Of a DNA stretch of 50,455 nucleotides, positions 20,598 through 41,109 are shown piece by piece. The notes below the pieces were generated by a model that saw only the letters and a list, made by a program, of their open reading frames with translations, did not search any database and had not been told where the DNA came from. The first letter of the stretch is position 1. Each line of letters starts with the position of its first letter. The position numbers and the translations under genes were made by a program. Origin of the DNA: Bacteroidales bacterium. Lineage in GTDB: Bacteria; Bacteroidota; Bacteroidia; Bacteroidales; UBA932. Location: contig JAFSJK010000077.1 in the NCBI GenBank assembly GCA_017439305.1, forward strand, positions 1 through 50,455, read 5' to 3'.

Positions 20598-20636
20598 AGC
20601 GTAACGTACCAGGCTGATGATCAGCCGTTTAAACGA

Positions 20637-20673
20637 AGGTCTATGTCCTTTTTGGAACATAGACCTTTCTTTA
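20637..20673. terminator. Terminator after rubrerythrin
   Basis: Stem AGGTCTATGT (20638-20647) / ACATAGACCT (20658-20667) with a cctttttgga loop, followed by a T-rich stretch on the plus strand. It lies between two convergent genes and may serve both. Confidence 0.8.
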
Positions 20674-20685
20674 ATGCCTTGATAA

Positions 20686-21534
20686 TCAGTACAATTCCTT
20701 GAATCCCCGGTACAGGTAACCAACCAGGTCCGAGCTGGAATACCCCTCGGCCGTGCGCTCCTGCGTCAGGATGTCGCCGGTGCGGCCGTGGAGCCAGACG
20801 GCGAGGGCGGCGGCATCGGCCGATGCATAGCCACGCGCGAGGAGGCCGCCCAAGAGGCCGGTCAGCACGTCGCCGCTTCCTCCCTTTGCCAGCCCCGGAT
20901 TGCCGGTCGTATTGACCAGGCAGTCTCCGGCAGAAGTGAATACTTTCGTATGGAAGCCTTTCATTACCAGTGTACAACCGGTGGAAGTGCAAAGCGATTG
21001 AACCTGGCGATCCCGTTCTTCAACGTCGTTCCAGGGTAGCAGGCGCCTCAACTCCCCGAGATGCGGGGTAAGGACCGCACCCATCGGCAAATGATTCTGC
21101 CAGTCAGGGACCTCGGAAAGGATGTTCAGCGCGTCAGCATCGACAATCACGGGGAGATTCCGCTCCTGGGCCGCTTTCAACAGGGCAAGCAGCGCCTCCT
21201 TCGTCTCCGGACGCCGTCCCAGTCCCGGCCCCACAGCCACAGCAGTGTATCGGTCCATGGACACCGGCACGCGGCTGAAGCCCTCCCCCGGATCCTCCGA
21301 CAGCATCGCCGACGGATCCCTGACCACGACCGCCTGCAGCGCCCGTTCCGTGGAATGCAGCGTCACCAGCCCGCACCCGGACCGCAACGCCGCCCCAGTC
21401 GCCAACACAGCCGCCCCAGGCATCGTCTGGCACCCTGCCACGACAAGCAAGTGTCCATAATCACCTTTATGGCTCTCCTCCGCCCGCTGTAGCAGCCGAG
21501 GTCGGAGATAGGCGGAATCGATCGAAGTCATCAT
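20686..21534 (-). CDS. nnrD: ADP-dependent NAD(P)H-hydrate dehydratase
   Basis: Repairs hydrated NAD(P)H using ADP as the phosphate donor. The 282-aa product belongs to the ribokinase-like CARKD family: HKGDYGHLLVVAG near the start, AVGPGLGR, VIVDADALN, LTPHLGELRRLL, MKGFHTKVF and the signature GNPGLAKGGSGDVLTG with the catalytic Asp. It covers only the dehydratase half; the epimerase (NnrE) domain often fused in other bacteria is absent. The ATG at 21534 (or 21531) is chosen because the -7 box lies at 21555-21562, inside the longer ORF. Confidence 0.9.
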   Translation of the reverse strand: MMTSIDSAYLRPRLLQRAEESHKGDYGHLLVVAGCQTMPGAAVLATGAALRSGCGLVTLHSTERALQAVVVRDPSAMLSEDPGEGFSRVPVSMDRYTAVAVGPGLGRRPETKEALLALLKAAQERNLPVIVDADALNILSEVPDWQNHLPMGAVLTPHLGELRRLLPWNDVEERDRQVQSLCTSTGCTLVMKGFHTKVFTSAGDCLVNTTGNPGLAKGGSGDVLTGLLGGLLARGYASADAAALAVWLHGRTGDILTQERTAEGYSSSDLVGYLYRGFKELY

Positions 21535-27795: not shown

Positions 27796-27814
27796 TTAGT
27801 TCAAAAATTAAAGA

Positions 27815-27964
27815 TTACCACCAATTAGTTTCGGTAGACCGGTCTTGCATGTAAGCTTTTTCCTCAAATGAAGAGTTCTCTGCCGGGCTCGCGCAGAAAT
27901 TCCCCTCGAATTTCACGAGGATCAGCTCCGTCTCGGGAGCTTCATAAAGGTGTTTTTTGTTCAT
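27815..27964 (-). CDS. Short Bacteroidales peptide (49 aa)
   Basis: A 49-codon ORF, 19 bp upstream of the large lipoprotein gene on the same strand. It starts MNKKHLYEAPETELILVKF and ends in an acidic/polar tail with Trp-Trp. The start matches the small Bacteroidales proteins of the type M-K-K-x-Y-x-x-P-E-x-E, which commonly precede genes for fimbrillin-like or other surface lipoproteins; that family knowledge and the spacing are the support. It has no signal peptide and no known function. It could be a co-expressed peptide or a leader controlling the next gene. No consensus -7 box was found upstream. Confidence 0.6.
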   Translation of the reverse strand: MNKKHLYEAPETELILVKFEGNFCASPAENSSFEEKAYMQDRSTETNWW

Positions 27965-28131
27965 AACGTTATGTTTATATTTTGTATCTATTCGTTTGAT
28001 ATAGAGTCACTTCATGCCCGTCCGTACGGAACGGAGGGGGCAAATCGTGTCTTATATGTGGCGATTTTCTTCATTTCAAGACCGCAAATTTACGGATAAT
28101 CGCCCGGTTTTCCAACAAAGAAGATATAAAA

Positions 28132-28151
28132 CGCGCGTAATTCTACGCGCG
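28132..28151 (-). repeat. Perfect 8-bp hairpin
   Basis: CGCGCGTA / TACGCGCG with a 4-nt loop. On the minus strand TTTTATATCTTC follows, a terminator-like arrangement, although no minus-strand gene lies upstream. It could insulate the divergent units or serve as an operator. Confidence 0.6.
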
Positions 28152-28253
28152 AGAAGGGTGACGATGGCTCCGGGGAGAAACATTATATACAAGATTGGGG
28201 GCATAGACAAGACCGGCTTCCATCAATGGAATGCCATTTTTTCAAATTATTGC

Positions 28254-28261
28254 TATTTTTG
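28254..28261 (+). promoter_or_regulatory. Promoter -7 box of the S8-like protease gene
   Basis: TATTTTTG, 20 nt before the ATG at 28282. No clear -33 TTTG. Confidence 0.55.
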
Positions 28262-28281
28262 CATAAACCGAAGTTGCTAGA

Positions 28282-30624
28282 ATGTATTCTCTCATCGTTA
28301 AACATTTGCCTGCTTATTTGATGCGGCTGTTGTCCGCATTTACAGTTCTCTTGTTTTTTACCGTTTGTACGCCTGAGGAAAATCAAGGTGGGAAAAATGA
28401 GCCCAAAGACGAAGATCCGAAGGAAAATCCCGGCAATGAGACGACGGAAGATGTTTGGAAACAATTCACGGAACAAGACATCACCTTCCAGGGCAACTTG
28501 CCCGACACCGAGTTGATGTCTTTCACCGGCATCGACGGCTCCCCGCTATATGTAGTCGGTTATCCCGGGCTGCTATCAGTCTCCTTTACTCCGGCCACTC
28601 CCGTAAAGACTGTTTGGGAGCACGTAATCAATGCTTCCGGAAAGGTCGTCGGGCAGTATCCAGAGCTCGGATATTACGTCGTTTCGGTGAAGGCCGGTAA
28701 AGAGAATGATTTTGTTGCCAGGATGAAGGATGCATCTGGAATCAGAAGCATTTACCCCGAGTTCGAAATCGGTGATGATGCCTGTTTTGTTATTGACAAA
28801 GGTCAACATGGAAGAAATGTTGAGAACCAGTTGAATAAATGGGATGATTACGTTTGGACTGAGTTCGTGGACATTTCCAATGGTCAGGATGCTAGCCAAA
28901 GTATTCCCTTCGAAACCATAAAGCATCCGCTTTTTTCCTGCCTGAAAAGAGGCGATTGTGAAATTGTAAATCTTTCCTACGGAACCCCTTATGGAATTAA
29001 AGGGAAGAAATATGGTTCTAATCAAAAACAGGATAGTGCTTACGTAAATAATCGGGCTGACTATATCGACTGGATCTGCGACATAGTTATTCAAAGCGGA
29101 AACACGACTACTCCCGTTATTCTCTCAGCAGGCAACGATGGCATGCATGAACTGGAGAAAATAATCGGAAAAACCAATGATAATAGCCGGTCTCTTCTTG
29201 GCAAGCAGGTTATTCTCGTTGGCGCTGAAGACAAAGGGCATACGTATTCGAACAAGATGAAGAATCGGGAAACGAAATCCCCCGTTATCAACCCCATCGT
29301 GAACATCACCGATATCAGAGATGTCGATGATCCGGATCTACTCATCCACGGGACTTCCTTCGCAGCTCCGAATTATGTCCGGTACCTGCGGGCGGTGGCC
29401 GTTTATTTCGAGCTGACACTTATGGAAGCCGTTGAATTACTGAGCGATGAATGGTTCAACCGGGGAATAACCGCCTGGGATGATGATCAAATACTGAGAC
29501 TGCTCCTCGGCACTCCTTCGACCGACATCCTGCTTGAACAGATTCCGCAGAAGGTGCCGCCCCATGGAGGGTCATTCCAGATTGATGTCGAGATTTCCGC
29601 GGAGAACTGGATGGTTGCGGATTCCACACCCTGGACGATATCTGCCGATTGCGACTGGATCCATTTTAATCAGACAACCGGAACCGGCAATGAAAGAGTC
29701 ACAATGACTGTTGATGGGAATGTCACCGGCAGGTCCCGGAGTGCAACGGTTTTCGCAGAGATTGACGATGCACAGGATGGCGATCAGAAAAAACGTTTCA
29801 AAGCAACCATCGAACAAGCCGAAGCAAAAGTGTTTGCCCCCAATCACGACGTCTACTATGTGCTTCCCGGAGTTGAGTCTTCCGCGGTTTATTACGGGGA
29901 TGGCTGGTCCAGCAGTTTTTCCGACTTGGAATTCAGCATCGACTTCAAGACGAATTACAAGGTTACGGAATGTTTCCTGGAGGATGATACCATCGAACAC
30001 ACACTGAATGGATATTATGGCAGTTATCCCGACGAGAATGGCTATTACGACAATTCCGTCATTATTTATTTCTCTCCGCAAACGCCGATACAGAACAACT
30101 GTGGCACCAATTGGAGGGAAATGGGACTTCGGCCCGAATCTCCGATTCCATCCCGCAGTACCTATCTGAAAGTCCGTCTTCCCGAGTCGCCCGACAAGTC
30201 CTATGTCGCAACACTTGCAAAGGTTGTCCAGGTGGGGCTGCCTTGCATTACCATGAAACAGTGCCATCTCAATGACGTTTCGATCCCGTCCGGCGTGGAC
30301 ATGGAAGGCCAGTTCGTCCTTGATTTTGAAGTGACTTACCCGGACGAATTGACCAAATCCGCTTGCAAGGGGCTAGGCTTTCAATGGTCCAGCAAAGAAA
30401 AGTACATCCTCCAAAACGAAGACATGGGAATTCAGATGCAGGGATACGGCGGGACGATAAGCATCCCTATTTCTCAGTCCTCGTTGACACTATCGTTCAT
30501 GCAATTTCCTCTGTCTTCCCGGACATTCGACTGGACCATGGACATGTATGTGGAAATGTATGGTCCCGATACAACCGAGAGAATCTATGCCCCGGCGCCT
30601 ATAAGCATCAGCAAGACATTCTGA
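28282..30624 (+). CDS. Divergent S8 (subtilase) lipoprotein with BACON domain
   Basis: 780-aa secreted protein. A hydrophobic signal (LLSAFTVLLFFTVC) ends at Cys29 in a poor lipobox, then an acidic linker. Residues about 85-162 look like a subtilase propeptide (YYVVSVKAGKENDFVARMK...IRSIYPEFEI). The peptidase core has VNLSYG, LSAGND (oxyanion Asn285) and HGTSFAAP (Ser359). The other catalytic residues are less clear: VIDKGQHGRNV (Asp172, His176) may be a compressed DTG...HGT pair, which is unusual. Residues about 415-505 form a BACON-like domain, and the rest is beta-rich and unrecognised. It precedes the MazG/GIY-YIG pair, which has its own promoter. Activity is uncertain. Confidence 0.75.
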   Translation: MYSLIVKHLPAYLMRLLSAFTVLLFFTVCTPEENQGGKNEPKDEDPKENPGNETTEDVWKQFTEQDITFQGNLPDTELMSFTGIDGSPLYVVGYPGLLSVSFTPATPVKTVWEHVINASGKVVGQYPELGYYVVSVKAGKENDFVARMKDASGIRSIYPEFEIGDDACFVIDKGQHGRNVENQLNKWDDYVWTEFVDISNGQDASQSIPFETIKHPLFSCLKRGDCEIVNLSYGTPYGIKGKKYGSNQKQDSAYVNNRADYIDWICDIVIQSGNTTTPVILSAGNDGMHELEKIIGKTNDNSRSLLGKQVILVGAEDKGHTYSNKMKNRETKSPVINPIVNITDIRDVDDPDLLIHGTSFAAPNYVRYLRAVAVYFELTLMEAVELLSDEWFNRGITAWDDDQILRLLLGTPSTDILLEQIPQKVPPHGGSFQIDVEISAENWMVADSTPWTISADCDWIHFNQTTGTGNERVTMTVDGNVTGRSRSATVFAEIDDAQDGDQKKRFKATIEQAEAKVFAPNHDVYYVLPGVESSAVYYGDGWSSSFSDLEFSIDFKTNYKVTECFLEDDTIEHTLNGYYGSYPDENGYYDNSVIIYFSPQTPIQNNCGTNWREMGLRPESPIPSRSTYLKVRLPESPDKSYVATLAKVVQVGLPCITMKQCHLNDVSIPSGVDMEGQFVLDFEVTYPDELTKSACKGLGFQWSSKEKYILQNEDMGIQMQGYGGTISIPISQSSLTLSFMQFPLSSRTFDWTMDMYVEMYGPDTTERIYAPAPISISKTF

Positions 30625-30641
30625 ATATCCACCGGGTTTTT

Positions 30642-30649
30642 TATATTTG
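30642..30649 (+). promoter_or_regulatory. Promoter -7 box of the MazG-like / GIY-YIG operon
   Basis: TATATTTG, 25 nt before the ATG at 30675 and 17 nt after the protease stop codon. It marks the pair as its own transcription unit. Confidence 0.55.
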
Positions 30650-30674
30650 TGTATTAATCAGCATCAATACAACC

Positions 30675-31004
30675 ATGACCGACATTGAGACCATCCAGGC
30701 CGAACTCCGCAAGTTCAACCGGGAACGGGACTGGGACCAGTTCCACAATGGGAAAGACCTCGCCGTAGCCATTTCCATCGAGGCCGGCGAGTTACTGGAA
30801 GCCTTCCTTTGGAAGTCTCCCGAGGATGCCAAAGTCGAGAAGGTCCGGGAGGAACTGGCGGATGTCCTCAACTATGCTTTCCAGATGGCGGACCGCTATG
30901 GTTTGGACGTCAAGGAAATCATGCTGGAAAAGATGCGGAAGAACGCTGAAAAGTATCCTGTCGCCAAGGCAAAGGGGTCCGCGAAAAAGTATAATGAAAT
31001 CTAA
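30675..31004 (+). CDS. MazG-like nucleotide pyrophosphohydrolase
   Basis: 109-aa all-alpha NTP pyrophosphatase of the MazG/dCTPase-like superfamily. The metal-binding motif is EAGELLEAFLW...KVREELADVLNYAFQMAD, the EExxE-x12-28-ExxD arrangement. A short helical C-terminus (EIMLEKMRKNAEKYPVAKAKG) follows, as in phage and bacterial single-domain members. Such enzymes hydrolyse (d)NTPs to monophosphates. Its stop is 5 bp from the next ATG, so the two proteins are clearly co-expressed. The start at 30675 fits the -7 box; the open frame upstream overlaps the protease gene and is not coding. Substrate unknown. Confidence 0.87.
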   Translation: MTDIETIQAELRKFNRERDWDQFHNGKDLAVAISIEAGELLEAFLWKSPEDAKVEKVREELADVLNYAFQMADRYGLDVKEIMLEKMRKNAEKYPVAKAKGSAKKYNEI

Positions 31005-31009
31005 GGCCG

Positions 31010-32842
31010 ATGATCCCCTCTCCCGTTTTCTTTACAACCGCTGAAGACGCCGGCTTTCTTCAGGATTTCCAAAACAGGATCCTCACTGATTCACGGGTCA
31101 AGGATCCTGAGACTTTCTTGAATTATCCCATCGTCTATATCCATTACTGGCCTTCACAAACCATCACTTATGTCGAAAAGAAGAGTGGCCAGGAGAAGTC
31201 GTTTACCAAGTACGACGTCTATGTCGGCGAAAGCATTGACCTGCTGGGAAGGACAAACCAGCACTTCGACACAGGGAAAAAGGCGGAGTCAGCGGAAGAT
31301 GCGTGGCAATACAGCCTCGTAAACTTCAAGAACAACAATGAGATCCCCTATATCATCGTAATCGGCCAGGCGCATTTCAACAAGTCCTTTACGCTCGACG
31401 TCGAGAACCGGCTTATCGAGTATGTCACCTCCATGCAGGAGAGTGTCCGCTGCTCCCATAATGGAAGAGGAAATCCGCAGGGAGACTATTACCCTTCTGA
31501 AGAGTTTGACAAGGTCTTCAGCAAGATCTGGACAGGGCTCAGGAGGATCAAGCCGGACCTGTTCCTTTCTGAAACCAGGATCAAGGATTCCGCGATTTTC
31601 AAAGCCTCGCCGCTCAAGAAGCTCAAGCCCGAACAGATTCAGGCCAAGGAATTAATTATCAGGAAAGTATGTGATGCTTATGAAAGCGGTAAGGAGGGGC
31701 AGCTGATCTTCGTCCAAGGAGAAGCCGGAACGGGAAAAACGGTTTTGACCACATCGACTTTCTATGAATTGATCAAAAGAGGAGAGGAGACGCCCCCGCC
31801 CGGTCAGCCCCGGTTCCCCAAAATGAAATGCCATCTGATGGTCAACCATGACCAGCAGGCTCATGTGTATGAACAGATGGCCAAGAGGTTGAACCTTGGA
31901 GAAGATACCGTCAGCAAGCCGACCGCCTTTATCAACCGATACAGCAAGGATAACAAAGTGGATGTCGCTTTTATCGATGAAGGGCATCTGCTCTGGACAC
32001 AGAAAAAACAGGCTTATGCCTCTGATGCCGCGAATCAATTGACAGACATCATCGAACGGGCCCGTGTCACGGTCATCATGTTCGACGAGTATCAGGTACT
32101 GACCACCGAAGAGTATTGGGAACCGGCCATTTTGGAGAAGTTCAAACAATTGTCCATCAGCCAGAACAACTATATCACGCTGAGCAACCAACTGCGAATG
32201 GAGTGCTCTCCTTCGACGATGGAGTGGATAAGCAACTTCGTACTGAACAAAAAGATTGGCCTGTTCCAGCCCGACAGCCAGTACGAGGTAAAGTCCTTCG
32301 ATTCTCCCAAACACCTTCACCAAGCCATCACGAAACTCGCATCGAAAGAAGAAAGCAAACTCTCCAGATTAGTAGCCACATATGACTGGGATTACAATCA
32401 GAAGTCGGTACCGGAAGACGGTGGATTCTGGAAGGTCCAGATCGACGACTGGAGCCTTCCCTGGAATTATGAGCGCGAGCGCCATATGACCCGGAAAGAG
32501 AAAAGGAGGATCAGTTCCCTCGCCTGGGCGGAACAGAACCAGACCATTGATGAAGTGGGCTCTACCTTCACGATCCAAGGATTTGACCTCTCCTATGTCG
32601 GAGTAATTTTAGGGCCCTCCGTGCAGTACAGGGACGGTCATGTCGTGTTTTGTCCCGAATACAGCAAGAATGAAAAAGCTACCAGAAACAGGACACTGAC
32701 CGACGGCACCAAAGCCCAATTCGGTGAGATCTTTCTCCGCAACGAAGTCAAAGTCCTCCTGACACGCGGCGTAAAAGGTCTCTACATCTACGCCTGCGAC
32801 CCCGCCCTCCGTCAAGCCCTCAAGGACATCGCCAAGATCTAG
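31010..32842 (+). CDS. GIY-YIG nuclease fused to DUF2075 P-loop ATPase
   Basis: 610-aa two-domain protein. Residues about 40-155 form a GIY-YIG-type nuclease: YDVYVGESIDLLGR gives the Tyr/Gly strand and Arg81, DVENRLIEY the catalytic Glu132, and HNGRGN the terminal Asn region. From about residue 205 a DUF2075-type SF1-like ATPase starts with Walker A GEAGTGKT (237-244), Walker B VAFIDEGHLLW (Asp323, Glu324) and MFDEYQVL, and closes with STFTIQGFDLSYVGVILGPS and KVLLTRGVKGLYIY. The arrangement suggests an ATP-driven motor that places a nuclease on DNA or RNA. Its immediate partner is the MazG-like enzyme; a structured repeat starts 8 bp after its stop. A defence role is inferred. Confidence 0.83.
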   Translation: MIPSPVFFTTAEDAGFLQDFQNRILTDSRVKDPETFLNYPIVYIHYWPSQTITYVEKKSGQEKSFTKYDVYVGESIDLLGRTNQHFDTGKKAESAEDAWQYSLVNFKNNNEIPYIIVIGQAHFNKSFTLDVENRLIEYVTSMQESVRCSHNGRGNPQGDYYPSEEFDKVFSKIWTGLRRIKPDLFLSETRIKDSAIFKASPLKKLKPEQIQAKELIIRKVCDAYESGKEGQLIFVQGEAGTGKTVLTTSTFYELIKRGEETPPPGQPRFPKMKCHLMVNHDQQAHVYEQMAKRLNLGEDTVSKPTAFINRYSKDNKVDVAFIDEGHLLWTQKKQAYASDAANQLTDIIERARVTVIMFDEYQVLTTEEYWEPAILEKFKQLSISQNNYITLSNQLRMECSPSTMEWISNFVLNKKIGLFQPDSQYEVKSFDSPKHLHQAITKLASKEESKLSRLVATYDWDYNQKSVPEDGGFWKVQIDDWSLPWNYERERHMTRKEKRRISSLAWAEQNQTIDEVGSTFTIQGFDLSYVGVILGPSVQYRDGHVVFCPEYSKNEKATRNRTLTDGTKAQFGEIFLRNEVKVLLTRGVKGLYIYACDPALRQALKDIAKI

Positions 32843-32849
32843 TATGCCT

Positions 32850-32984
32850 CGCCGAAAGGCGTCCCCTCAACTACCTGACAGACAGCTACTTACGCATAAT
32901 TCCCTGGTCATTTTTACCCAGGGAATAATCCATAACACATTAGTAGCCAATCACTTCAGCGCACCCGGATTCAGCCAGGACACC
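32850..32984 (+). repeat. Structured repeat, copy R1
   Basis: 135 bp. It starts with a GAAA-tetraloop hairpin CGCC-GAAA-GGCG (32850-32861), then CTTACGCATAATT, a hairpin ATTCCCTGG / CCAGGGAAT (32899-32907, 32918-32926), then ATTAGTA, TCACTTC and a GCGCACCCGGAT...CCAGGACACC end. The same blocks occur in order at 34001-34140. Confidence 0.85.
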
Positions 32985-33202
32985 GCTGGTGCAGGCGGAA
33001 TTACAGCTTTCAGCACTGGACGAGCAGGCGGGAAGGCGCGGTCCCGGAACGGGATGACGGAGTTTGTTTGAGGACGTTACAGGCCCGGCTTGCCGGGGCT
33101 GTAAAAGGACGAGTTCGACGTCAAGCGCCTTCCCGTCTGCGCGAGCCGCTGAAAGTTGTCATGGAGCCTGCGCTAGCGGTGTCCCGACAGATTCCGGGCG
33201 TC
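32959..33202. repeat. Large imperfect palindrome with nested hairpins
   Basis: The left arm, from GGACACCGCTGGTGCAGGC at 32978 to GGCGGGAAGGCGC ending at 33039, pairs with the inverted right arm 33125-33184 (GGACACCGCTAGCGCAGGC...GACGGGAAGGCGC read on the minus strand). Similarity extends outward into the end of R1 and 33185-33202. Inside are hairpins TCCCG/CGGGA (33042-33054) and TACAGGCCCGG/CCGGGGCTGTA (33078-33103). The whole could fold as a branched RNA or extrude as single-stranded DNA of over 200 nt. Confidence 0.8.
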
Positions 33203-33266
33203 ATCACGATTTGTCAAACCGGCATATAATCCTTTCGACAAAACCTCGATTTCCAATCGAAATCAT

Positions 33267-33274
33267 TATCTTTG
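33267..33274 (+). promoter_or_regulatory. Candidate -7 box for the orphan ORF
   Basis: TATCTTTG on the plus strand. The first ATG of the downstream ORF is 158 nt away, so a long leader would be made. Confidence 0.45.
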
Positions 33275-33432
33275 TTTTGTATGTATCTTGGTCGTGAAAT
33301 CGGCCGGTAATGAAATCAGGAGCCTCAAGTCTTTCCCATTCTGGAAAGCCGCTCTCTTCACAAAGGACTAGCAGCAGCCCATTATCTTGATTATTGGTTA
33401 CTGTTAATGATAATTACCAAACGAATGATTCC

Positions 33433-33840
33433 ATGGAGATTCCAAAGGGAAAAACGCGTCCTGAAATAAAGGTGCGTGAGCAAATAATCAAAGAATTCTA
33501 CGCCAGATGGATTGCTGAGAACCCATCCAAATCAGTGTGGAATAAGTCCTTGAAGGCTGAAATAAAGATCAAGGGTTTGTCGTACAATGAGACAATTGAA
33601 CACGCAGCTCGCTCATATGAATCAACCTTGGCTGTATTTCAATTGACAGATATTCTTTCAAAAGCAGTAAAGGAGTCTTCCAAACCCAAGAAACAAAATG
33701 ACAGAAACCAGAAATCCTTTTCTCGAGTTATCATTATGCGATATAAGCAAATCAGGCTCGTTGTCGGATTCCAGAAATCGAAAAATGAATATGTCCAATA
33801 TTCCATCTCTGCAAAACCTGCCAACGAAAACAAAAAATAA
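33433..33840 (+). CDS. Orphan 135-aa protein of unknown function
   Basis: Not recognised. The product is basic and starts MEIPKGKTRPEIKVREQIIK, with a helical region (FYARWIAENPSKSVWNKSLKAEI), a middle GLSYNETIEHAARSYESTLAV and a C-terminal beta-like part (IIMRYKQIRLVVGFQKSKNEYV). The pattern looks like a compact folded protein, and I have an impression of similar uncharacterised Bacteroidales proteins, without a name. The start at 33433 (ATG) is preferred to a TTG at 33394. It is the only ORF between repeats R1 and R2, and a minus-strand RNA terminates against its 3' end. Nucleic-acid binding is a guess from charge only. Confidence 0.6.
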   Translation: MEIPKGKTRPEIKVREQIIKEFYARWIAENPSKSVWNKSLKAEIKIKGLSYNETIEHAARSYESTLAVFQLTDILSKAVKESSKPKKQNDRNQKSFSRVIIMRYKQIRLVVGFQKSKNEYVQYSISAKPANENKK

Positions 33841-33856
33841 AAGCCGCCCAGGCAGC
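33832..33856 (-). terminator. Intrinsic terminator of the minus-strand RNA
   Basis: On the minus strand, stem GCTGCC / GGCGGC (one G-U pair) is followed directly by TTTTATTTTTTG. The T run lies over the 3' end of the 135-aa ORF. Confidence 0.7.
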
Positions 33857-33934
33857 GACTTTCAGAGGGGCTCGAATCAAGCTATTGGCTCAAAAGGGTT
33901 GTCAACCCTTCAGCGAAATCCCCGTGACGATTCC
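33835..33934 (-). ncRNA. Probable small RNA, about 100 nt
   Basis: A full Bacteroidales promoter (TTTG, 19 bp, TATCTTTG at 33970-33940) points left, and an intrinsic terminator lies about 100 nt further on with no start-to-stop reading frame between. The transcript would contain a tight palindrome AAGGGTTG-a-CAACCCTT (33894-33910) and G-rich and C-rich segments (GGGG near 33920, CCCC near 33870) able to close around it. It converges on and slightly overlaps the end of the 135-aa ORF, so it may regulate that gene or be the functional product of the segment. Not recognised as 6S, tmRNA or a tRNA. Confidence 0.5.
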
Positions 33935-33939
33935 AATTG

Positions 33940-33970
33940 CAAAGATAACTCTTTTTCGTCAACCAACAAA
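33940..33970 (-). promoter_or_regulatory. Promoter of the minus-strand small RNA
   Basis: -33 TTTG at 33970-33967, a 19-bp spacer, -7 TATCTTTG at 33947-33940, both exact consensus. One of the best promoters in the window, yet no ORF follows it. Confidence 0.7.
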
Positions 33971-34000
33971 AAATGCTATATCTTTTACCCGTCCCCTACC

Positions 34001-34140
34001 CGCCGAAAGGCGTCGAATGTAACCGCCTTACAGACAACGCCTTACGCATAATTACCTGGTCAAAAATGACCGGGTAATTTTCAATAACAAATTAGTAATC
34101 AGTCACTTCCATTCGACGCACCCAGATCTGCCGGGACACC
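34001..34140 (+). repeat. Structured repeat, copy R2
   Basis: 140 bp, collinear with R1: CGCC-GAAA-GGCG (34001-34012), ACAGACA, CTTACGCATAATT, hairpin ATTACCTGGTCA / TGACCGGGTAAT (34051-34062, 34067-34078), ATTAGTA, TCACTTC, GACGCACCCAGAT and CCGGGACACC. Relative to R1 the stem changes C-G to A-T on both arms, a compensated difference. Confidence 0.85.
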
Positions 34141-34142
34141 AA

Positions 34143-34403
34143 CTAGAACGGCAACTCCCTCGTACCATGGACAACGTCCAGGCCCAACGCCAGGGCCTCC
34201 TCCAGGGAGAGTTCCTGGAAACGGGGAATGCTTTTCCCGTCCCGGACAACTTCGCCGAAGAACATCTCCTTGGGCCGGATCCACATCTGGCCGTCCCCAT
34301 ACATAGCTTGATACACAACCATTTCCTCCAAGGTTTCGCTGTCCTTGGCGATACCGACGAGCCGGTAGATGTTTCCTTTAAAGTGCCGATAGAACGTTTC
34401 CAT
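34143..34403 (-). CDS. DUF1653 protein
   Basis: 86-aa cytoplasmic protein of the DUF1653 family, function unknown. Family signature: YRHFKGNIYRLVGIAKDSE, then EEMVVYQAMYGDGQMWIRP and MFFGEVV. The ORF can be extended to an ATG at 34445, but relatives begin close to the YRHFKGN block, and a TATCTTTG box at 34409-34416 sits inside the longer version, so METFYRHFKG at 34403 is chosen. Only 5 nt separate box and ATG, which implies leaderless translation. Repeat R2 ends next to its stop codon. Confidence 0.82.
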   Translation of the reverse strand: METFYRHFKGNIYRLVGIAKDSETLEEMVVYQAMYGDGQMWIRPKEMFFGEVVRDGKSIPRFQELSLEEALALGLDVVHGTRELPF

Positions 34404-34408
34404 GGGCT

Positions 34409-34416
34409 CAAAGATA
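34409..34416 (-). promoter_or_regulatory. -7 box of the DUF1653 gene (leaderless geometry)
   Basis: TATCTTTG, then agccc, then ATG on the minus strand. Transcription would begin at or within a few nt of the start codon. Confidence 0.5.
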
Positions 34417-34494
34417 CGCATTCTTGCCGGGCCCACCACCTCCATCCAGGAATAATTCGTATATTTAGCTTCTGAACCTTTATCCCCTTCTGTT

Positions 34495-34683
34495 ATGGCA
34501 ACTTATCCTTGTGAGAACTGCAAGTTCAGGGCGCACTACGACAAGAATCCCAAATCGGTCCTCGGCCGGTTGTGGCGGTGGCACATCAATTTCTGCCCGG
34601 GCTTCAAGGCCTATTTCACCCATCAGGACGATGCGGTCAAGGCGGCGCTCCGGGAGAAGTATGACTTCAAGAAGTATCAGTAG
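34495..34683 (+). CDS. Small Cys/His-rich protein (62 aa)
   Basis: Conserved-looking small protein with Cys6-x2-Cys9 (PCENCKFR), His14, then RLWRWHINFCPGFKAYF with another His and Cys34, a possible zinc-binding knuckle. The remainder is a basic/acidic helix (DDAVKAALREKYDFKKY). The codon bias resembles the housekeeping neighbours. No named family is recognised; similar short proteins occur in Bacteroidales by my recollection. It ends 2 bp from a convergent short ORF. Upstream, TATATTTA is only a partial -7 match. Confidence 0.62.
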   Translation: MATYPCENCKFRAHYDKNPKSVLGRLWRWHINFCPGFKAYFTHQDDAVKAALREKYDFKKYQ

Positions 34684-34685
34684 AC

Positions 34686-34802
34686 CTACAGGAAATCCTC
34701 CGTCTTAACCTCGACGGCCGGATTCACTTTCCAAATCCGGGCCTCGATTGACGACCACTTCACGAGCTTGGGATGGGTAGAGTTGGAATAAACTGTTCTC
34801 AT
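34686..34802 (-). CDS. Short ORF coupled to ccsBA (38 aa)
   Basis: Its ATG overlaps the TGA of ccsBA (ATGA), so it would be translated by coupling. The product (TVYSNSTHPKLVKWSSIEAR, then IWKVNPAVEVKTEDFL) looks protein-like. The R-I-x-x-x-N-P-x-x-E-V pattern faintly recalls ThiF/TcdA-type E1 enzymes, which would make it a remnant, but this is weak. It could also be a fortuitous frame: it exactly fills the space before the convergent 62-aa gene. Confidence 0.35.
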   Translation of the reverse strand: MRTVYSNSTHPKLVKWSSIEARIWKVNPAVEVKTEDFL

Positions 34803-36715
34803 GAGCCATATGAATGCATCCCGCCCAGCAGGAGGTTGACGCCGAAATAGGTGATGAGCACGCAGAGGAAGGCGGCGATGGTGAACCAGTGGAAGAAGCG
34901 CGCGTTCCGGAAAGGCTTCAGCGCGCCGCCGTGCAGGGTGAAAGAGTAGACCAGCATGGTCACGAGCGCCCAGGTTTCCTTCGGGTCCCAGGCCCAGTAG
35001 CTGCCCCAGGAGATGTTGGCCCATACGGCACCGAGGAAAGTGCCGAAGGTCAACAGGAACACCGCCGGATACATCACCACCAGACTGACGGAACGCAAGT
35101 CCTCCCGTGCCTCGGCCGAAGGGACGGCGACGCCCATGATGCCGTTGAAGGCCACCAGGCCGAACAGCGTGTAGGACATCATCATCGACAGCACGTGGAT
35201 GGACAGCAGGGGCGACTGGAGTACCGGCATCAGCGGCATAATCTGGGGGCTCACGCCCTCCCGGCTCGCCAGCAGCATCGTGAAACCGGCCAGCAGGAAG
35301 CCCAGCGGCTCAATCAGCGGGAAACGCTTGTACAGCAGCAGGATAGCCAGCGTGGCGAACCACGCCATGAGCATCATCACATTATACCGGCCCACGTACG
35401 GACCTGTGCCGGAGACATACCACCTCAACCCGATCACCAGCGACAGGTACAGCCAGATCAACAGCGCAATCACGGCTCCGGCAATCAGTACCCAGGACGG
35501 GAACTTCTTCTTCCGCGTAATCAGCACGCCGCCCAGAACGAACAGGACGATGCCCAGCGCCAGGCACAGCATAAACTGCGCCTTCGGCCGCGCGATGCGG
35601 ATGTAGGTCCGCTCGGCCTTCACCTTCCGCGGCGACGGAATGACGGAGGAAGCCGTCTTTTCCTGATAGGCCTTGATGCCATTCAGGACCTGCAGGACAC
35701 CGGCCTCGTCGCCGGAAGAAACGCTTTCCTTCACCAGTTCCGGAGATTTCCGGATAAAGGTCCAAAGATCCTGGTCTTCATAGACGGATTCGGGAAGATC
35801 GTCGGCCGCGGCGTACCAGGAGACCTTTCCGGTGGAGTCGGCCAGCGGGAACAGTTTCATCTTGTCCAGGCTTTCCACGGCCGCATCCAACCCCTTCTCC
35901 TGCAGGTATGTATCGAACGGACACACCCGGTGCCCATAATAGACATACATCTCGCCGAGGGCCTTCTTCACGTCCCGGGTCGAGGCGGAAGCCGACACCG
36001 AAGGAACGAGCACCAGGAAAGCCACCGCCGCCGTCATCGTCGCAACCCGGCGGAGAGCCTGCCGGAAAACCGTGTCTTTCTGGAAGAAAAACCCAATCAT
36101 CGACAGGAGCAGCAGGAGATAACCCGCATAGGTGATTCCCACGCCCCAGGGGTCGTGGCTTACCGCCAGGATGCTGCCCTTTCCATCTTCGTCATAATCA
36201 GCCTGATAGAACCGGTAGCCGCGATACTTGGCGATGTTGTTCATGGAAATCCGCACGGCGGTCCCTTCGGGGAGGAAAGTGATGTCGGACCGATAGTCGG
36301 AAGGCATCCGGGAGCCGTGATGGTAGTCGATGGCGAATGCATCCAGGCGGATGCTGAAGGGAAGCGTGGCCGGAGACTCATCTTCCAGTTCGAAGGAGGC
36401 CAGGGTCTCCCCTTCCCGCAGATGGATCTCGCCGCTTTCCCCGAACAGATGGGTGACAAGGGCTCCGGCCAGGATGACGGCCAGGCCCAGGTGAAGGCCC
36501 ATCGTGAACAAACGCTTCGGCGTTCCCGCCATCACCAGGTAAACCAACCCGGCCACGGCAGCGACAGCCCACAGAATGAGGAACAGCGGACTGTGGTAAA
36601 ACCACTGGAAAGCCACCGGCGTCCCGTGGAGTTTTTCGACGACGGTGGCGGCCATCATCATCACGATGAGGACCGCCGCCGCGCCGTAAGAGAGATACTT
36701 GCAAGTTCGTTTCAT
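34799..36715 (-). CDS. ccsBA: CcsBA-type cytochrome c synthase (ResB-CcsA fusion)
   Basis: 638-aa membrane protein that exports haem and ligates it to CxxCH apocytochromes in the system II pathway. The N-terminal half is ResB-like: a first helix, GSMAVALL-like topology and a periplasmic domain (LASFELEDESPATLPFSIRLDAFAIDY..). After a linker the C-terminal half is CcsA with multiple helices and the WWD motif WANISWGSYWAWDPKETWAL, plus conserved His (LSIHVLSMMMSYTLF; LHGG). Full length for a Bacteroidales fusion. It lies downstream of, and in the same direction as, a di-haem cytochrome gene, its probable client. A -7 box ends 4 nt before the ATG. Confidence 0.9.
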   Translation of the reverse strand: MKRTCKYLSYGAAAVLIVMMMAATVVEKLHGTPVAFQWFYHSPLFLILWAVAAVAGLVYLVMAGTPKRLFTMGLHLGLAVILAGALVTHLFGESGEIHLREGETLASFELEDESPATLPFSIRLDAFAIDYHHGSRMPSDYRSDITFLPEGTAVRISMNNIAKYRGYRFYQADYDEDGKGSILAVSHDPWGVGITYAGYLLLLLSMIGFFFQKDTVFRQALRRVATMTAAVAFLVLVPSVSASASTRDVKKALGEMYVYYGHRVCPFDTYLQEKGLDAAVESLDKMKLFPLADSTGKVSWYAAADDLPESVYEDQDLWTFIRKSPELVKESVSSGDEAGVLQVLNGIKAYQEKTASSVIPSPRKVKAERTYIRIARPKAQFMLCLALGIVLFVLGGVLITRKKKFPSWVLIAGAVIALLIWLYLSLVIGLRWYVSGTGPYVGRYNVMMLMAWFATLAILLLYKRFPLIEPLGFLLAGFTMLLASREGVSPQIMPLMPVLQSPLLSIHVLSMMMSYTLFGLVAFNGIMGVAVPSAEAREDLRSVSLVVMYPAVFLLTFGTFLGAVWANISWGSYWAWDPKETWALVTMLVYSFTLHGGALKPFRNARFFHWFTIAAFLCVLITYFGVNLLLGGMHSYGS

Positions 36716-36719
36716 TCAG

Positions 36720-36727
36720 CAAAGATA
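36720..36727 (-). promoter_or_regulatory. -7 box of ccsBA (leaderless geometry)
   Basis: TATCTTTG, ctga, ATG on the minus strand. It also shows that ccsBA can be transcribed independently of the di-haem operon upstream. Confidence 0.5.
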
Positions 36728-36752
36728 CGGAAAAATCCGTTGTATCAAACAG

Positions 36753-38528
36753 TTAGATAGACTCGATGAATTTCACCACCGCGTCGCGGTCCTCCTTGGA
36801 AAGGTTGTAGAACTTCTCGGCGGAAGTATAGCTGTCGCTCTTCTTGGAATAGGCGTGCCACATGATGGCTTCCACGACATTCCGGGCGCGGCAGTCGTGC
36901 AGACGGTCGGAGGCGCCAGTGTTCATGGTGGACAGGCCACGGCCCCAGAGCGGCGTGGTACGGCACCAGGTTCCGTGGATGTCGTTCTTCATGTACAGGC
37001 GGTGCTGGATGAAGTCGGAGTACGGCCAGATGGTCTGGTTGGCGTAACGCGGCAACGGTTTTCCTTCGTTCATCGCCGGGGACCAGTAATTGTCGTCCCC
37101 CGTCTTCCAGGACGGTTTGTGACAGGACGCACAGCCCATGGACGTAAACAGTTCCTTACCGCGCTGGACATCCTTCTCATGCAAGTTGCGGGCACGCGGG
37201 ATGGAAAGACCGCGGTGCCAGACCATGAAGTCATAGAAATCGTCGGCCGACATCTCCGGGGTGAAGTTGTGGTACGGGTTGTCGAACTGATTCGTGGAAG
37301 GGCTCAGGAGGGCGAGGACAGCCTCGGAAATCTCCGCGTCGGTCACCGTACCATCCTGATCCACATCGACATAGTAGGGAGAGGACGCCCCTTCTTCGCG
37401 GATGGCCTTGATGACGGAGGGCGTCTCCGACATCTTCCGGGCCCAGGCGACGGTGGTGTACAGATACGGACGGTCCGGACGGGACACGTTGGTGATGTTC
37501 CAGATGGCGTTGGCTCCGGCGCCATCCTGCAGGGTACCGCGGGTCATCGCGTACGTAAAGCGCTTGACGGGTGCATAGGTACCACGGGCGACAAAAGTGC
37601 CGTCGGCGAGATAACCGTCACCCAGGGAACCCTTCTGCCAGTTGCCGTAGAAGGCAGATGCCGCGAAATCATTGGCGGCCTTGTCCCAGAAAGCCGGATT
37701 CAGTTCCACGTAAGGAGCCTCGGCACGATACTGCTCCCGGATGGCATCCTCCGGAATGGCATCAATCAGGCCCGAGCCGATTACGCCGATGGTGGATTCC
37801 AGGCGGAAGCCCATTGTCAAGCCTTTCTCGGTGGCCGTATCGTAGGGATTCGGATTCGTGTTGAAGGCACTCTTGTCAATGGTAAGTTCCGGATACTGAA
37901 GGGAATACTCCTCGCCGTCGGGGAACTTCATCGGCAAGCCGCTCTCCATCGCGGAGACCGGAATCCAGCTCAGGTGGATGCCTTTTTCGTCGATGGGCGG
38001 AAGGAACGGCTCGGCCGCCATCGTCTGCGGCATACCGGTCACTTCGGACACATAGGCGCCGTCATTGCTGCCGGGTTCGTTGGCATAATAGACCACCAGC
38101 AGATAGCCGTTGCCAAAGGCGCGGGACGTATTGGCTTCGTACACGCTTTGCCATTTTCCGTGTCCGTAGGCCGGGTGGCAGTCCAGGCAGGACTTGCGCA
38201 CGCTGGCCGGGCCCAGGCCACGGAACGGGGCGGTATTCAGCGTGAAGTTGCGCTCGAAGAACATCTCGCCATGGTTGAAAGCGGTCTCGAGGCCTTGCTG
38301 CGTAACGGCAGGGGCTTCATCCTCGTAGCAGCCTTCCGTCACGTTATCGGTTGTTCCAAGAAGACCGCCGGGGTACCACTCTTCAGCCGAGAAGTTTCCC
38401 ACAGCCTGTCCCACGTACTTCGCATCGGACTCGTGGGCGGGCACCGGCTCCGTGCCGTTATGCTGGCAGGCCGTCAGGGAAAATGTGACAGCCACGCCAG
38501 CAAGGATTGTTCTGAACAAGTATCTCAT
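36753..38528 (-). CDS. Di-haem thiol-oxidoreductase-like cytochrome lipoprotein
   Basis: 591-aa exported lipoprotein (LTAC, Cys21) of the di-haem oxidoreductase (DUF1111/DHOR) family. Two haem-binding motifs are visible, CLDCH (114-118) and CASCH (466-470). DHOR-type blocks include GLGPASVRKSCLDCHPAYG, FRLESTIGVIGSGL and MWHRGLSIPRARN. An EF-hand-like loop, DVDQDGTVTDAE at about 388-399, lies between the two haem sites and is uncommon. Its start is 6 bp from the imelysin stop, so it is the third gene of porin-imelysin-cytochrome. Maturation needs CcsBA, encoded next. A redox step in iron or copper acquisition is inferred. Confidence 0.87.
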   Translation of the reverse strand: MRYLFRTILAGVAVTFSLTACQHNGTEPVPAHESDAKYVGQAVGNFSAEEWYPGGLLGTTDNVTEGCYEDEAPAVTQQGLETAFNHGEMFFERNFTLNTAPFRGLGPASVRKSCLDCHPAYGHGKWQSVYEANTSRAFGNGYLLVVYYANEPGSNDGAYVSEVTGMPQTMAAEPFLPPIDEKGIHLSWIPVSAMESGLPMKFPDGEEYSLQYPELTIDKSAFNTNPNPYDTATEKGLTMGFRLESTIGVIGSGLIDAIPEDAIREQYRAEAPYVELNPAFWDKAANDFAASAFYGNWQKGSLGDGYLADGTFVARGTYAPVKRFTYAMTRGTLQDGAGANAIWNITNVSRPDRPYLYTTVAWARKMSETPSVIKAIREEGASSPYYVDVDQDGTVTDAEISEAVLALLSPSTNQFDNPYHNFTPEMSADDFYDFMVWHRGLSIPRARNLHEKDVQRGKELFTSMGCASCHKPSWKTGDDNYWSPAMNEGKPLPRYANQTIWPYSDFIQHRLYMKNDIHGTWCRTTPLWGRGLSTMNTGASDRLHDCRARNVVEAIMWHAYSKKSDSYTSAEKFYNLSKEDRDAVVKFIESI

Positions 38529-38534
38529 AGTCAG

Positions 38535-39755
38535 TTAGAGTTTGGAAATCCAGTCCGCCGCTTCGTTCAGGAGGGCGTCCAGGGCATTGATCTTCACGAT
38601 GGCGGTTTCGGCCACGGCGGCAGCCGGGTCGTCCACGAAGGCCTTTCCACTGGCCAGGCAGGCGTCCAAGGAGGCAACCGCGGCCTTGAGGGCGGATTCC
38701 ATCTCGGCGGCCTTCGCCCATCCGTTATCCTTGAGGAACTGCATCACGGAAGCGGAAGCGGCCGAATCCAGGCCCTGACCGCCGTACAGGCTGTACTGGA
38801 TGGACAGGATGTTGTCTTTGAAATCCTGGTAGGACTTCTTGGAATACGGGGACTCGATATAATCGGGATCGTAATCCTGGCTGTTCACATAGTGGGCAGT
38901 ACCGATCTTGGTATTGGCCACTTCGTTGCAGATGTTGGAACAACCGGCGACCAGGATGCTCGAGACCGCCTCGGGCCAGCTCCGGTAGGTGCTGCCGGCT
39001 TTTCCGGTCTGGAGCAGGTTTTCGCCATAGGTCAGGCCGGAATCCATCAAGGTATTCAATTCCAGTTCATCCTCGACCAGTTTCACGCGGTCCGCCGGGC
39101 AGGCGGGATCCCACGCGGCCTGCAGTTCGAAGCAGTAGTTGCGGAGGTCTTCGGCCACGGCGGTGGCGAAAATCACTTCGCTCTTGCCGGTGACGTTGCG
39201 TCCGGCGAAAGCCTCGTCGTCCTCGACACCGTTGAGTGCAGAGGCCTTCCGGTTGGCTCCGTTGCGGAAAATGATGAACTCGATCCCGTGGAAACCCAGG
39301 GATGCGGCGCCCACCTCATCCACGGCACCAGCGCCTTCGGCATCCAGGTCAGCGATGGTTTCGGCATTGGAGAGGCTCTTCACAAGCTTGTCCTTGTCCA
39401 GCGGCCAGGAATCGATATGAGGATCGATGCCGTATGCCGTCGCAGCACCGTACAGGAAAGCTTCGCTCTGCTCCCACCATTTGCGGGCGGAAAGGAATGT
39501 CGCACAGATCTTGGCGATATCGGCCTGCGCATAGGTATCCTTTTCCTTGAGGGCAGAGAGTTGATTATAAAGCGTTTCGGTTTCGTCGGCCAGGTTGCCG
39601 TAGATCTTGTAAATCACATTCGGGACATAAGACTCCACCGCAGCCTTGAGGGCTTTCTCCTGGGATGTCAGGCCCGCATCGGCCTTGGGATCCTTGTTGC
39701 AGGAAACGAGCGCCAGGACGGAGAGTGCCAGGACGCCAAGAAGTTTCTTTTTCAT
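38535..39755 (-). CDS. Imelysin-family periplasmic lipoprotein
   Basis: 406-aa lipoprotein (LALVSC, Cys19) of the imelysin / insulin-cleaving peptidase (ICMP) family. The GxHxxE signature is GFHGIEFIIFR (154-164), and WWEQSEAFLYG earlier matches the family. Internal symmetry (helical-bundle repeats) is typical. Homologues such as IrpA and EfeO take part in iron uptake, and peptidase activity is doubtful in most. Flanked 18 bp upstream by a porin-like gene and 6 bp downstream by the di-haem cytochrome, an association known from iron-regulated loci. No metal-dependent regulator is visible. Confidence 0.9.
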   Translation of the reverse strand: MKKKLLGVLALSVLALVSCNKDPKADAGLTSQEKALKAAVESYVPNVIYKIYGNLADETETLYNQLSALKEKDTYAQADIAKICATFLSARKWWEQSEAFLYGAATAYGIDPHIDSWPLDKDKLVKSLSNAETIADLDAEGAGAVDEVGAASLGFHGIEFIIFRNGANRKASALNGVEDDEAFAGRNVTGKSEVIFATAVAEDLRNYCFELQAAWDPACPADRVKLVEDELELNTLMDSGLTYGENLLQTGKAGSTYRSWPEAVSSILVAGCSNICNEVANTKIGTAHYVNSQDYDPDYIESPYSKKSYQDFKDNILSIQYSLYGGQGLDSAASASVMQFLKDNGWAKAAEMESALKAAVASLDACLASGKAFVDDPAAAVAETAIVKINALDALLNEAADWISKL

Positions 39756-39773
39756 AATTTACACGTTTTAAGA

Positions 39774-41030
39774 TTATTTACGGTTGAAAAAAGCCATGTA
39801 GCAGATGCCCAGGCTGACCGAAGGCTCGGGGTTGTAGCCGGCTTTCAGGAAACGGTGGGAATACTCCGCTTTCACGGCGATTTGGGGAATCGGGAAATAA
39901 TTGAGGCCCACGGCGATGCGGTTTTTGACCGTCCATTCGGCCGGTTCCTCGCCCGCATCGGGGATGAAAGGATTGTAGTATTCGTAGCGGCCGAAAACGA
40001 AGAGCTGCTGCTCTCCCCGGTGGAACCAGGGCAGGATGTCGTAGCCGGCTTCGACGCCGAAGGCCATCGCACCCTTTCCCACGGCGGATTTCTTGTACGG
40101 AGCGTTGTTGGCGGAACGGTTCCGCTTCATGTAACTGATGGTCGCCGCATCCCCCACATAGCCGTAATCGGCATTGCCGCGGGCGACCAGGCGCCGGCCC
40201 TTGTACTCGAAGTCGAAGGCCCCCACCGCCGTACGGCCAATCACGCCGGCATAGCGGGAGGACTCGGCAATCACCTCATAGGGATAGGTATTGTTGAAGG
40301 CGCGGCCGTAGAAGCCGCTCAGGGACAGGCGCAAATCCTTCACCGAGTAATTGTCCAGACGGGCGGCGAGGCCCAGCTGGTTGGCCGCCTTGAACTCGAA
40401 GGGAGACCCGGCGCCGTTCTTGATGAAGTTCTCGGTATTGAACAGATAGGCGTCCAGGCCGGCGATGACCATCGCTTCGTAGCGCCAGTGGGCCGTCCGG
40501 CCCCAGAGGCTTACGCCGGTATCATGCCAGGTAGAGGGCAGGATCGTACTCTCCCCTTCCGGCCGGTAGACGGTGAAGAAGTTCAGCGGCTCGTGGGCAT
40601 TGTTCAGGCCGCCCACAGGGACGACCAAGTGTCCCATCCGCAGGTTCAGTTCCGGCCGGAAACTCTTCTGGATCCAGAACTGCTCCAATTCCACTTCGCC
40701 GCCTTTCTCCACCTCGGTCTCCCATTCGCCGGCCTCTTCGAATTCCTTCTCAGAAGCGGTGCCGGTACCGGTATGCTCGAACTCGATTTCCGTCTGCATG
40801 GACCATCCTTTCCCGAAGTCGTATCCCACATAGATGACGGCATGGGGAATATCGAAACGGCCGTGCTGCTCGCCTTGGTGCGAGGCGGCGGAAGAATAGC
40901 GGTAGACATTGTCACTGTAGAAGTTGCGGGTCATCGCGACCTCGCCGTAACCTCCGACGGTAAGCCGTTGGGCGGCGGCGGGAACAAGGGCCGCCATCCC
41001 GAAGGCAAGGATGACAAGGATTCTTTTCAT
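39774..41030 (-). CDS. Outer-membrane porin-like beta-barrel
   Basis: 418-aa exported protein with signal MKRILVILAFGMAALVPAAAQ and strongly alternating aromatic strands: LTVGGYGEVAMTRNFY, FDIPHAVIYVGYDFGKGW, LNLRMGHLVVPVGGLNN and the C-terminal VSLGICYMAFFNRK. The pattern is that of the phosphate-selective porin O/P type barrels of Bacteroidota. As first gene of the imelysin operon it probably lets a metal chelate or small anion cross the outer membrane. The ATG at 41030 follows the -7 box at 41054-41061; the ORF extends to 41084 across that promoter. Confidence 0.8.
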   Translation of the reverse strand: MKRILVILAFGMAALVPAAAQRLTVGGYGEVAMTRNFYSDNVYRYSSAASHQGEQHGRFDIPHAVIYVGYDFGKGWSMQTEIEFEHTGTGTASEKEFEEAGEWETEVEKGGEVELEQFWIQKSFRPELNLRMGHLVVPVGGLNNAHEPLNFFTVYRPEGESTILPSTWHDTGVSLWGRTAHWRYEAMVIAGLDAYLFNTENFIKNGAGSPFEFKAANQLGLAARLDNYSVKDLRLSLSGFYGRAFNNTYPYEVIAESSRYAGVIGRTAVGAFDFEYKGRRLVARGNADYGYVGDAATISYMKRNRSANNAPYKKSAVGKGAMAFGVEAGYDILPWFHRGEQQLFVFGRYEYYNPFIPDAGEEPAEWTVKNRIAVGLNYFPIPQIAVKAEYSHRFLKAGYNPEPSVSLGICYMAFFNRK

Positions 41031-41102: not shown

Positions 41103-41109
41103 TTCCCGG

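Follow-up and report, generated by a model that had tools for sequence, protein, structure and literature searches.

We analyzed a stretch of 50,455 nucleotides (nt) from a Bacteroidales bacterium (assembly GCA_017439305.1, contig JAFSJK010000077.1; hereafter the window, meaning the whole stretch at its full length), in which a segment of about 1.3 kb (32850-34140) follows the gene of a helicase of the SLFN-g3 (DUF2075) type. This segment holds two copies of a repeat that we call R (R1 and R2), a giant palindrome (PAL), and a gene for an LPD3-domain protein (Table 1). R1 (32850-32984) and R2 (34001-34140) are collinear direct repeats and diverged copies of one repeat, as had been recognized from the sequence alone before this analysis (hereafter the sequence-only reading): their GAAA-loop hairpins are identical, the following 89 nt agree at 75% without a gap, a GCACCC..GGACACC tail is common to both, and identity across 141 nt amounts to 73%. 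Their local alignment scores 64, as against a mean of 9.8 and a maximum of 19 in 500 dinucleotide shuffles. The stem that reads ATTCCC/GGGAAT in R1 and ATTACC/GGTAAT in R2 has changed on both sides, as previously noticed and then taken as a sign of selection on structure; the structure has indeed been kept, and selection would here be indistinguishable from self-correction of a palindrome.

Table 1. Features of the segment and its surroundings, with the places of the related palindrome PAL2 in other genomes (G, genomes; L, loci).
Feature	Position	Strand	Basis and remarks
MazG-like protein gene, before the helicase gene	30675..31004	+	75% identical to the homologue in L036; named by eye, no family search made
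SLFN-g3 (DUF2075) helicase gene, N-terminal part GIY-YIG-like by eye	31010..32842	+	PF09848, E 2.3e-86; PAL starts 122 nt after it
GAAA-loop hairpin CGCCGAAAGGCGTC, 5' side of R1, overlaps dyad foot	32850..32863	+	14/14 identical to 34001-34014
R1, imperfect dyad of about 106 bp	32860..32965	+	model match 32874-32959, E 2.8e-10; R1 is one of 11 model sequences; limits from gap-free alignment
PAL, giant palindrome of a dispersed family, conserved core and copy-specific matched arms	32964..33198	+	arm comparison, genome search, folding
Possible structured leader RNA of the LPD3 gene	33280..33432	+	similar upstream of the G003 homologue (L044); promoter-like TATCTTTG by eye; inferred
LPD3-domain protein gene	33433..33840	+	135 amino acids from ATG, 148 if TTG at 33394; PF18798, E 4e-8 (frame from 33394)
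Possible RNA convergent with the LPD3 gene, ending at its stop codon	33838..33962	-	similar in G003 (L044) and G032 (L045); inferred, weakly alignable over seven loci
GAAA-loop hairpin CGCCGAAAGGCGTC, 5' side of R2	34001..34014	+	14/14 identical to the R1 hairpin
R2, imperfect dyad of about 106 bp	34012..34117	+	model match 34026-34111, E 7.2e-12; R2 also a model sequence
R2 tail, like the 5' outer arm of PAL, rest of PAL absent	34118..34140	+	inverted-match comparison and R1/R2 alignment
Third R copy of the window	20605..20690	-	model match, E 2.7e-8
PAL2 places	L267-L270 (G007), L263-L266 (G082), L065, L226, L271-L274 (G064)		similar cores, differing arms matched within each copy

We found that R is dispersed in the window's own genome. 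A covariance model built from 11 R copies of that genome only, two of them supplied by a locus with a transposase gene discussed below (L135), gave 63 matches at E<=1, which reduce to 33 places, near-palindromic copies being matched on both strands; one further match (E 0.56) was excluded. A covariance-model search had been proposed by the sequence-only reading, for which the absence of the repeat elsewhere, together with an unvarying 1.3 kb in related strains, would have ended its idea of a moved cassette; in fact 31 places beyond R1 and R2 came to light. We regard it as very improbable that the likeness of R1 and R2 reflects chance or a simple local duplication. The two lie 1.15 kb apart and share the GAAA-hairpin prefix and the tail, which were not seen by eye at the other listed R copies, and this much would fit; the alignment score far outside the shuffled range and the 31 further copies elsewhere do not. 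Chance as the source of the likeness is already refuted, and it is possible that R1 and R2 are a local duplication of one member of the R family.

Of these 33 places, 31 align without gaps over 130 nt as one dyad of about 106 bp (the two of other length were excluded), and every part of the dyad is equidistant from a single centre. The outer feet (columns 9-16 with 107-114) are 61-84% paired and fall into two subfamilies among the 31 aligned copies, GTCGAATG-like or GGTTCGCC-like; TTA/TAA steps are placed symmetrically about the centre; and the inner stem (columns 45-58) is 65-100% paired, with many two-sided changes. Pairing averaged over 50 column pairs reaches 0.66 when the dyad is centred correctly and 0.31-0.41 when the centre is displaced by 1-6. 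The inner stem was partly selected by the search model, but the outer feet lie outside it, and their pairing is therefore independent evidence. Moreover, just 1 of 24 tested copies (of the 33) lies inside an open reading frame (ORF) of at least 120 amino acids, compared with 72% of windows placed in the same loci. R thus has the two inverted halves in one extragenic hairpin that mark a REPIN. When the window was searched against Rfam at gathering level, a tRNA was the sole match and no family appeared for R, PAL, or the flanks of the LPD3 gene; a search of 32700-34600 at E<=5 returned five sub-threshold matches and no fitting family.

The copies of R are linked to a transposase gene. The R pair on contig C80 encloses an ORF of 307 amino acids for a HUH/tyrosine transposase that resembles RAYT, the transposase associated with repetitive extragenic palindromes (REP). 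In the window's own genome, three such genes (C80:13668-14588, C89:4656-5567, and C28:6883-7788) are each flanked on either side by an R no more than 150 nt away, the two further ones being 49% and 66% identical to that on C80. Residues H58, H60, Y118, N121, and N122 are invariant in all 16 aligned RAYT sequences, as a HUH and tyrosine transposase requires, and the position of Y118 within Y..NN suggests that it is the catalytic tyrosine. Of 41 genomes in the genus, 26 have RAYT homologues, some of them weak. We examined 30 RAYT loci from the genus, L135 among them and some cut short by a contig end. R was detected at E<=0.05 at both ends in 16 cases, at one end in seven, and at neither in seven, so that 23 have the dispersed palindromes at one end at least that are expected beside a RAYT gene. 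The control set, 29 of 30 other fetched loci (the window's own was excluded), contained a single R match, namely an R adjoining a PAL in genome G003.

These observations suggest that R1 and R2 are most likely non-autonomous, RAYT-linked palindromic repeats, REPIN-like and of a variant without GTAG. A non-autonomous element was among the possibilities raised by the sequence-only reading, and for R1 and R2 themselves the dispersed copies, the dyad, and the linkage to RAYT genes support it. Several points weigh against such an assignment. The feet of the 31 aligned R copies have no conserved columns of the form GT[AG]G (GTAG/GTGG). The C80 protein matches the curated family of REP-associated tyrosine transposases (NCBIfam NF047646) at E 8.3e-8 and 32.2 bits, below the cut-off of 80, and searches with it against Pfam (E<=0.01) and PDB chains (E<=1) brought no match. 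The same genome also has a fourth RAYT gene, a more distant one (C13:50391, 34% identity, one stop), with no adjoining R; at E<=0.05, R is likewise missing from the seven loci of the genus mentioned above. Of the 41 genomes, 21 carry both R and RAYT and 11 carry neither, and R is unaccompanied in 4 and RAYT in 5 (Fisher p = 0.001, a value that ignores the relatedness of the genomes); at the stricter filter of E<=0.001, five genomes with RAYT yielded no R match, and G030, where 79 R matches were counted over both strands and RAYT was not detected, speaks against strict dependence. Finally, R would be mobile by the analogy and linkage just described, and no pair of occupied and empty R sites was seen.

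PAL, which adjoins R1, is a member of a second dispersed family. Its arms of 51 nt are 78% complementary, it has an inner helix of 19 nt besides, and the stretch 32840-33200, R1 included, folds with a z-score of -9.0; the inverted partial copy of the repeat end that had been seen to close the palindrome is the 3' arm of PAL. The family occupies eight places in the window's own genome; a search of 61 genomes detected it in 4, the own one among them, which all belong to a single genus. The core pattern recurs in 25 stretches of a genome collection, some from the same genomes as G003 and G017, all of which are titled Bacteroidales or Bacteroidia and are uncultured or metagenome-assembled; 10 of the titles mention an organ of a ruminant, and RUG names, which we take to denote rumen genomes, occur in 13. 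An exact-pattern search of viral contigs did not find the core. At four of the eight places (the window, C28, C1:758, and C27), R immediately precedes PAL on its 5' side and on the same strand, and at C28 and C1 it stands on both sides of PAL; after R2 comes a tail that resembles the 5' arm of PAL, without the PAL. Seven of the eight copies could be compared, the eighth being cut by a contig end and excluded: core identity is 0.83 and that of the 20-nt arms 0.59-0.61, while an arm is 91% complementary to its own partner and 60% to the partners in other copies. In the four closest copies the core is 92% and the arms are 69-72% alike, so the arms are partly related. Separately, inspection by eye showed that PAL is followed on its 3' side by a third hairpin (approximately CGTAGGTCCA..TGGACCTACGG) in four own-genome copies (L012, L013, L014, and L016) and not in the window. 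Two further inverted repeats of PAL-like strength lie in the window at 23005-23089 and 49234-49292.

The ORF that had been noticed between the repeats exists and encodes the LPD3-domain protein. LPD3 is described as a domain of polyvalent proteins of phages and conjugative elements, with its precise function called elusive (PMC5512222). Homologues of the gene are present in 7 of the 61 genomes, own included, and stand elsewhere without the architecture of the window; the surrounding DNA is alignable to G003 over 744 nt at 61%. The leader and the convergent stretch on the other side of the gene (Table 1) show promoter-like TAnnTTTG boxes by eye. A small RNA at the LPD3 gene is plausible, with flanks alignable to one relative and no fitting Rfam family; seven sequences of the convergent stretch have a mean column identity of 45%, and we therefore claim no structure for it. 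As an observation in its own right, the possible convergent RNA has a terminator-like end that faces the LPD3 gene in several genomes (33838-33962 on the minus strand, and L044-L049), and this RNA and the LPD3 protein may form a pair. Together, these features make the LPD3 gene look like a module of its own.

We then considered whether the segment is a unit. It is AT-rich (GC content 0.39-0.40 at 33199-33840, compared with 0.59 at 34150-45000), in line with the sequence-only reading that it is unlike its flanks in composition, but 24000-32840 is also low (0.46), and the segment is thus the right edge of a larger low-GC stretch rather than a lone odd piece. That reading had further suggested a cassette moved by recombination at the repeats. 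On this view, the segment bounded by R1 and R2 would be excised or transferred in one piece, either through recombination or through a RAYT that acts on the two outer R copies. The direct orientation of R1 and R2, as in the R pair around the C80 RAYT gene, fits this, and an R-PAL-R arrangement recurs at C28, C1, and in L099. The other R-R intervals, however, are without an LPD3 gene; R1 and R2 are too unlike each other for a recent pair; and in six other genomes with the LPD3 gene, examined for about 1.5 kb on each side or less at contig ends, R is 442 nt away in L044 and absent at E<=0.05 in the other five. PAL was not found in five of these six genomes and lies on other contigs than LPD3 in G003. 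Searched with the whole 1.3 kb, the window's own genome has no second copy of the middle; the 31 other R places and seven other PAL places, with LPD3 occurring once, leave the cassette unsupported. Six orthologous ResB-CcsA loci, compared with one genome per species in search of an empty site, contain no PAL, no LPD3 gene, and none of eight other genes of the window, and so do not bear on the cassette either way; at one (L195) R is about 7 kb away. We rate a cassette as quite unlikely.

The segment is most simply read as a mosaic of three independent things that would have come together in one intergenic space. We hold with good confidence that R is a REP/REPIN-like repeat, probably one moved in trans by a RAYT, that PAL and the LPD3 gene are separate from it, and that successive insertions made the 1.3 kb. 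Under this reading, R would fold within single-stranded DNA and would be moved in trans by a RAYT-like HUH/tyrosine transposase; PAL would be a separate dispersed hairpin element that came to lie between R1 and R2, and the LPD3 gene a separate accessory module; and all would have inserted one after another in one intergenic space at the right edge of the low-GC stretch, beside the MazG-like and helicase gene pair.

A commoner sister family of PAL, which we call PAL2, was found while we were seeking palindromes at helicase loci without PAL, and it bears on how such hairpins come by their arms. Of 151 genomes in the genus, 102 contain a PAL2 match; copy numbers are lower bounds, few candidates having been scored per genome. 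From 20 fetched places and six copies of G064, we compared the copies that share a single core within their genome. In G007 (4 of 4) and G082 (4 of 5), the cores are 99% identical and the 22-nt arms 56-60% alike (random 22-mers: 51%, standard deviation 8%), with arms 98% and 85% complementary to their own partners, respectively; the six copies of G064 have a core identity of 93%, arms 55-56% alike, and 84% complementarity to their own partners. The opposite case is G089 (5 of 6), in which the arms are conserved at 95-97%, as in an ordinary repeat. Some inner arm positions appear by eye to be shared in G007 and G064, and we therefore do not claim complete novelty for each arm. A 99% core with near-random, self-matching arms within one genome fits a renewal of the arms better than slow compensatory change. 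Two other sources of the arms were considered and set aside. Old hairpins were rejected for the site before an mrp-like gene (named by eye; L276-L305), where the space is 0-11 nt in 13 of 30 orthologous loci and where four genomes besides G007 have other palindromes or other arms (5 of 30 loci; by eye and folding energy). Capture from elsewhere in the genome was rejected for two arms, one in G007 and one in G000, each of which was found at up to 3 mismatches only at its own two arms. As a suggestion, the matched arms may arise through inverted copying by template switching. We consider these copy-specific, self-matched arms the most novel point of this work; a full-text search of one open library, with limited terms, returned no title or abstract start that describes such palindromes in Bacteroidales.

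The same structures might instead be cis-acting. R and PAL could be RNA or DNA structures such as terminators or mRNA stabilisers that are selected at gene ends and are not mobile themselves, given that both fold strongly, that R shows paired changes and sits outside genes, and that PAL frequently follows gene ends. We think this unlikely, as it leaves unexplained the presence of R at the ends of RAYT genes, the same PAL core at unrelated loci, and the variable occupation of one orthologous site by PAL2.

The palindromes gather near helicase genes of the type found in the window. Outward inverted PAL pairs enclose SLFN-g3 genes twice in G003 and once in G017 (L036, L037, and L038), and such pairs also stand around other genes in L087 and L094; a gene that looks UPF1-like by eye is enclosed in this way in a genome other than these two. 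In G011, an SLFN-g3 gene has a palindrome on either side, the two sharing their arms but only one of them having a PAL2 core. By one criterion applied to all, 6 of the 18 full SLFN-g3 genes have a palindrome no farther than 1 kb away (8 in 35.6 kb of flank versus 0.6 expected from 3 in 177 kb at 49 control loci, two of the three being PAL2; P 2.5e-7), a figure in which the palindrome of the window is among the eight and was known beforehand and in which the genes are not mutually independent. Strong folds beside the SLFN-g3 gene in L059 and in L051 were set aside, as the first lies inside a repetitive ORF and the second adjoins an apparent tRNA (by eye). The window could show the right end of a PAL-bounded composite that carries the MazG-like gene and the nuclease-helicase module, with R-PAL as its right terminus and the left PAL lost. 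Besides the enclosing pairs and the enrichment, L036 shares with the window an R placed immediately 5' of the right PAL, and to the eye the right-end arms of L037 resemble those of the window. Yet in the window we looked for a PAL on the upstream side of the MazG-like gene and found none, 12 of the 18 SLFN-g3 genes are without a palindrome by our criterion (L038 among them, where a PAL recognized by sequence is 38 nt away), many PAL copies are unpaired neighbours of other genes as far as the fetched stretches reach, and the arm sequence is not conserved, unlike transposon ends. We find such a composite doubtful, if worth keeping in mind. We also observed that the nuclease parts of the nuclease-helicase modules with paired giant palindromes around them differ (PD-(D/E)XK or GIY-YIG, by eye; L036, L037, L038, and L220). 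To the right of the segment, an ORF of 62 amino acids (34495-34683, plus strand) has an 84% identical homologue beside the left PAL in G017 (L037), and the DUF1653 gene next to this ORF has a homologue near PAL in L085.

We propose, tentatively, that PAL and PAL2 are distinct mobile hairpins of uncultured gut Bacteroidales, in which a conserved core of 70-170 nt spreads and matched arms of 20-45 nt are made anew at or soon after insertion, which would give every copy a near-perfect stem of its own; they often border nuclease-helicase modules and may help to move them or be acted on by their enzymes. Such hairpins, with a constant core and arms that vary between copies, would raise the question of how a mobile hairpin renews its own stem, and of why such hairpins gather at nuclease-helicase genes. 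For R, our findings would tie an unexplained repeat pair to a divergent lineage of Y1 transposases, and they give atypical repeats of Bacteroidales a clear anatomy, a dyad of fixed length without GTAG, which makes recognition by the transposase directly testable.

Among known systems, PAL is reminiscent of miniature inverted-repeat transposable elements (MITEs) in being small, intergenic, and sometimes arranged as inverted pairs around genes. The ends of MITEs are their conserved part, and composites of two inverted MITEs exist; in PAL, by contrast, the outer arms vary between copies (0.59-0.61) more than the core (0.83), and conserved terminal inverted repeats are not what we found. For R, the parallel is with REPtrons and REPINs and their RAYT (TnpA_REP), which are described as dispersed extragenic palindromes that flank a gene for a HUH/Y1 transposase, with inverted halves in one hairpin and several repeat subfamilies per genome (PMC3116915; PMC6006769; PMC3733652). 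R differs in lacking a GT[AG]G foot, in occupying about 33 places, and in having one fixed dyad of about 106 bp where REP units are given as 20-40 bp (PMC3733652), and its transposase, of about 307 amino acids, falls below the cut-off of the curated family. TIRYT, as outlined in the same source, are relatives of RAYT with longer flanking inverted sequences that can form dispersed families; there, terminal inverted repeats flank the gene, whereas here a complete palindrome stands at each end (PMC3733652). Subclass 2.6 of TnpA_Y1 belongs to the same phylum, Bacteroidetes, and is characterized by NH[LIV]H and YIH[QN]NP motifs and a median distance of 82 amino acids between HUH and Y (PMC6006769). 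The RAYT sequences studied here mostly have DH.H and Y..NN, with NH.H in 3 of 16 aligned homologues, and the C80 protein has DHIH, YVGNNP, and 58 residues from H60 to Y118. By its sequence, then, the transposase departs from subclass 2.6 in both motif and spacing, and yet this subclass is its best-described neighbour.

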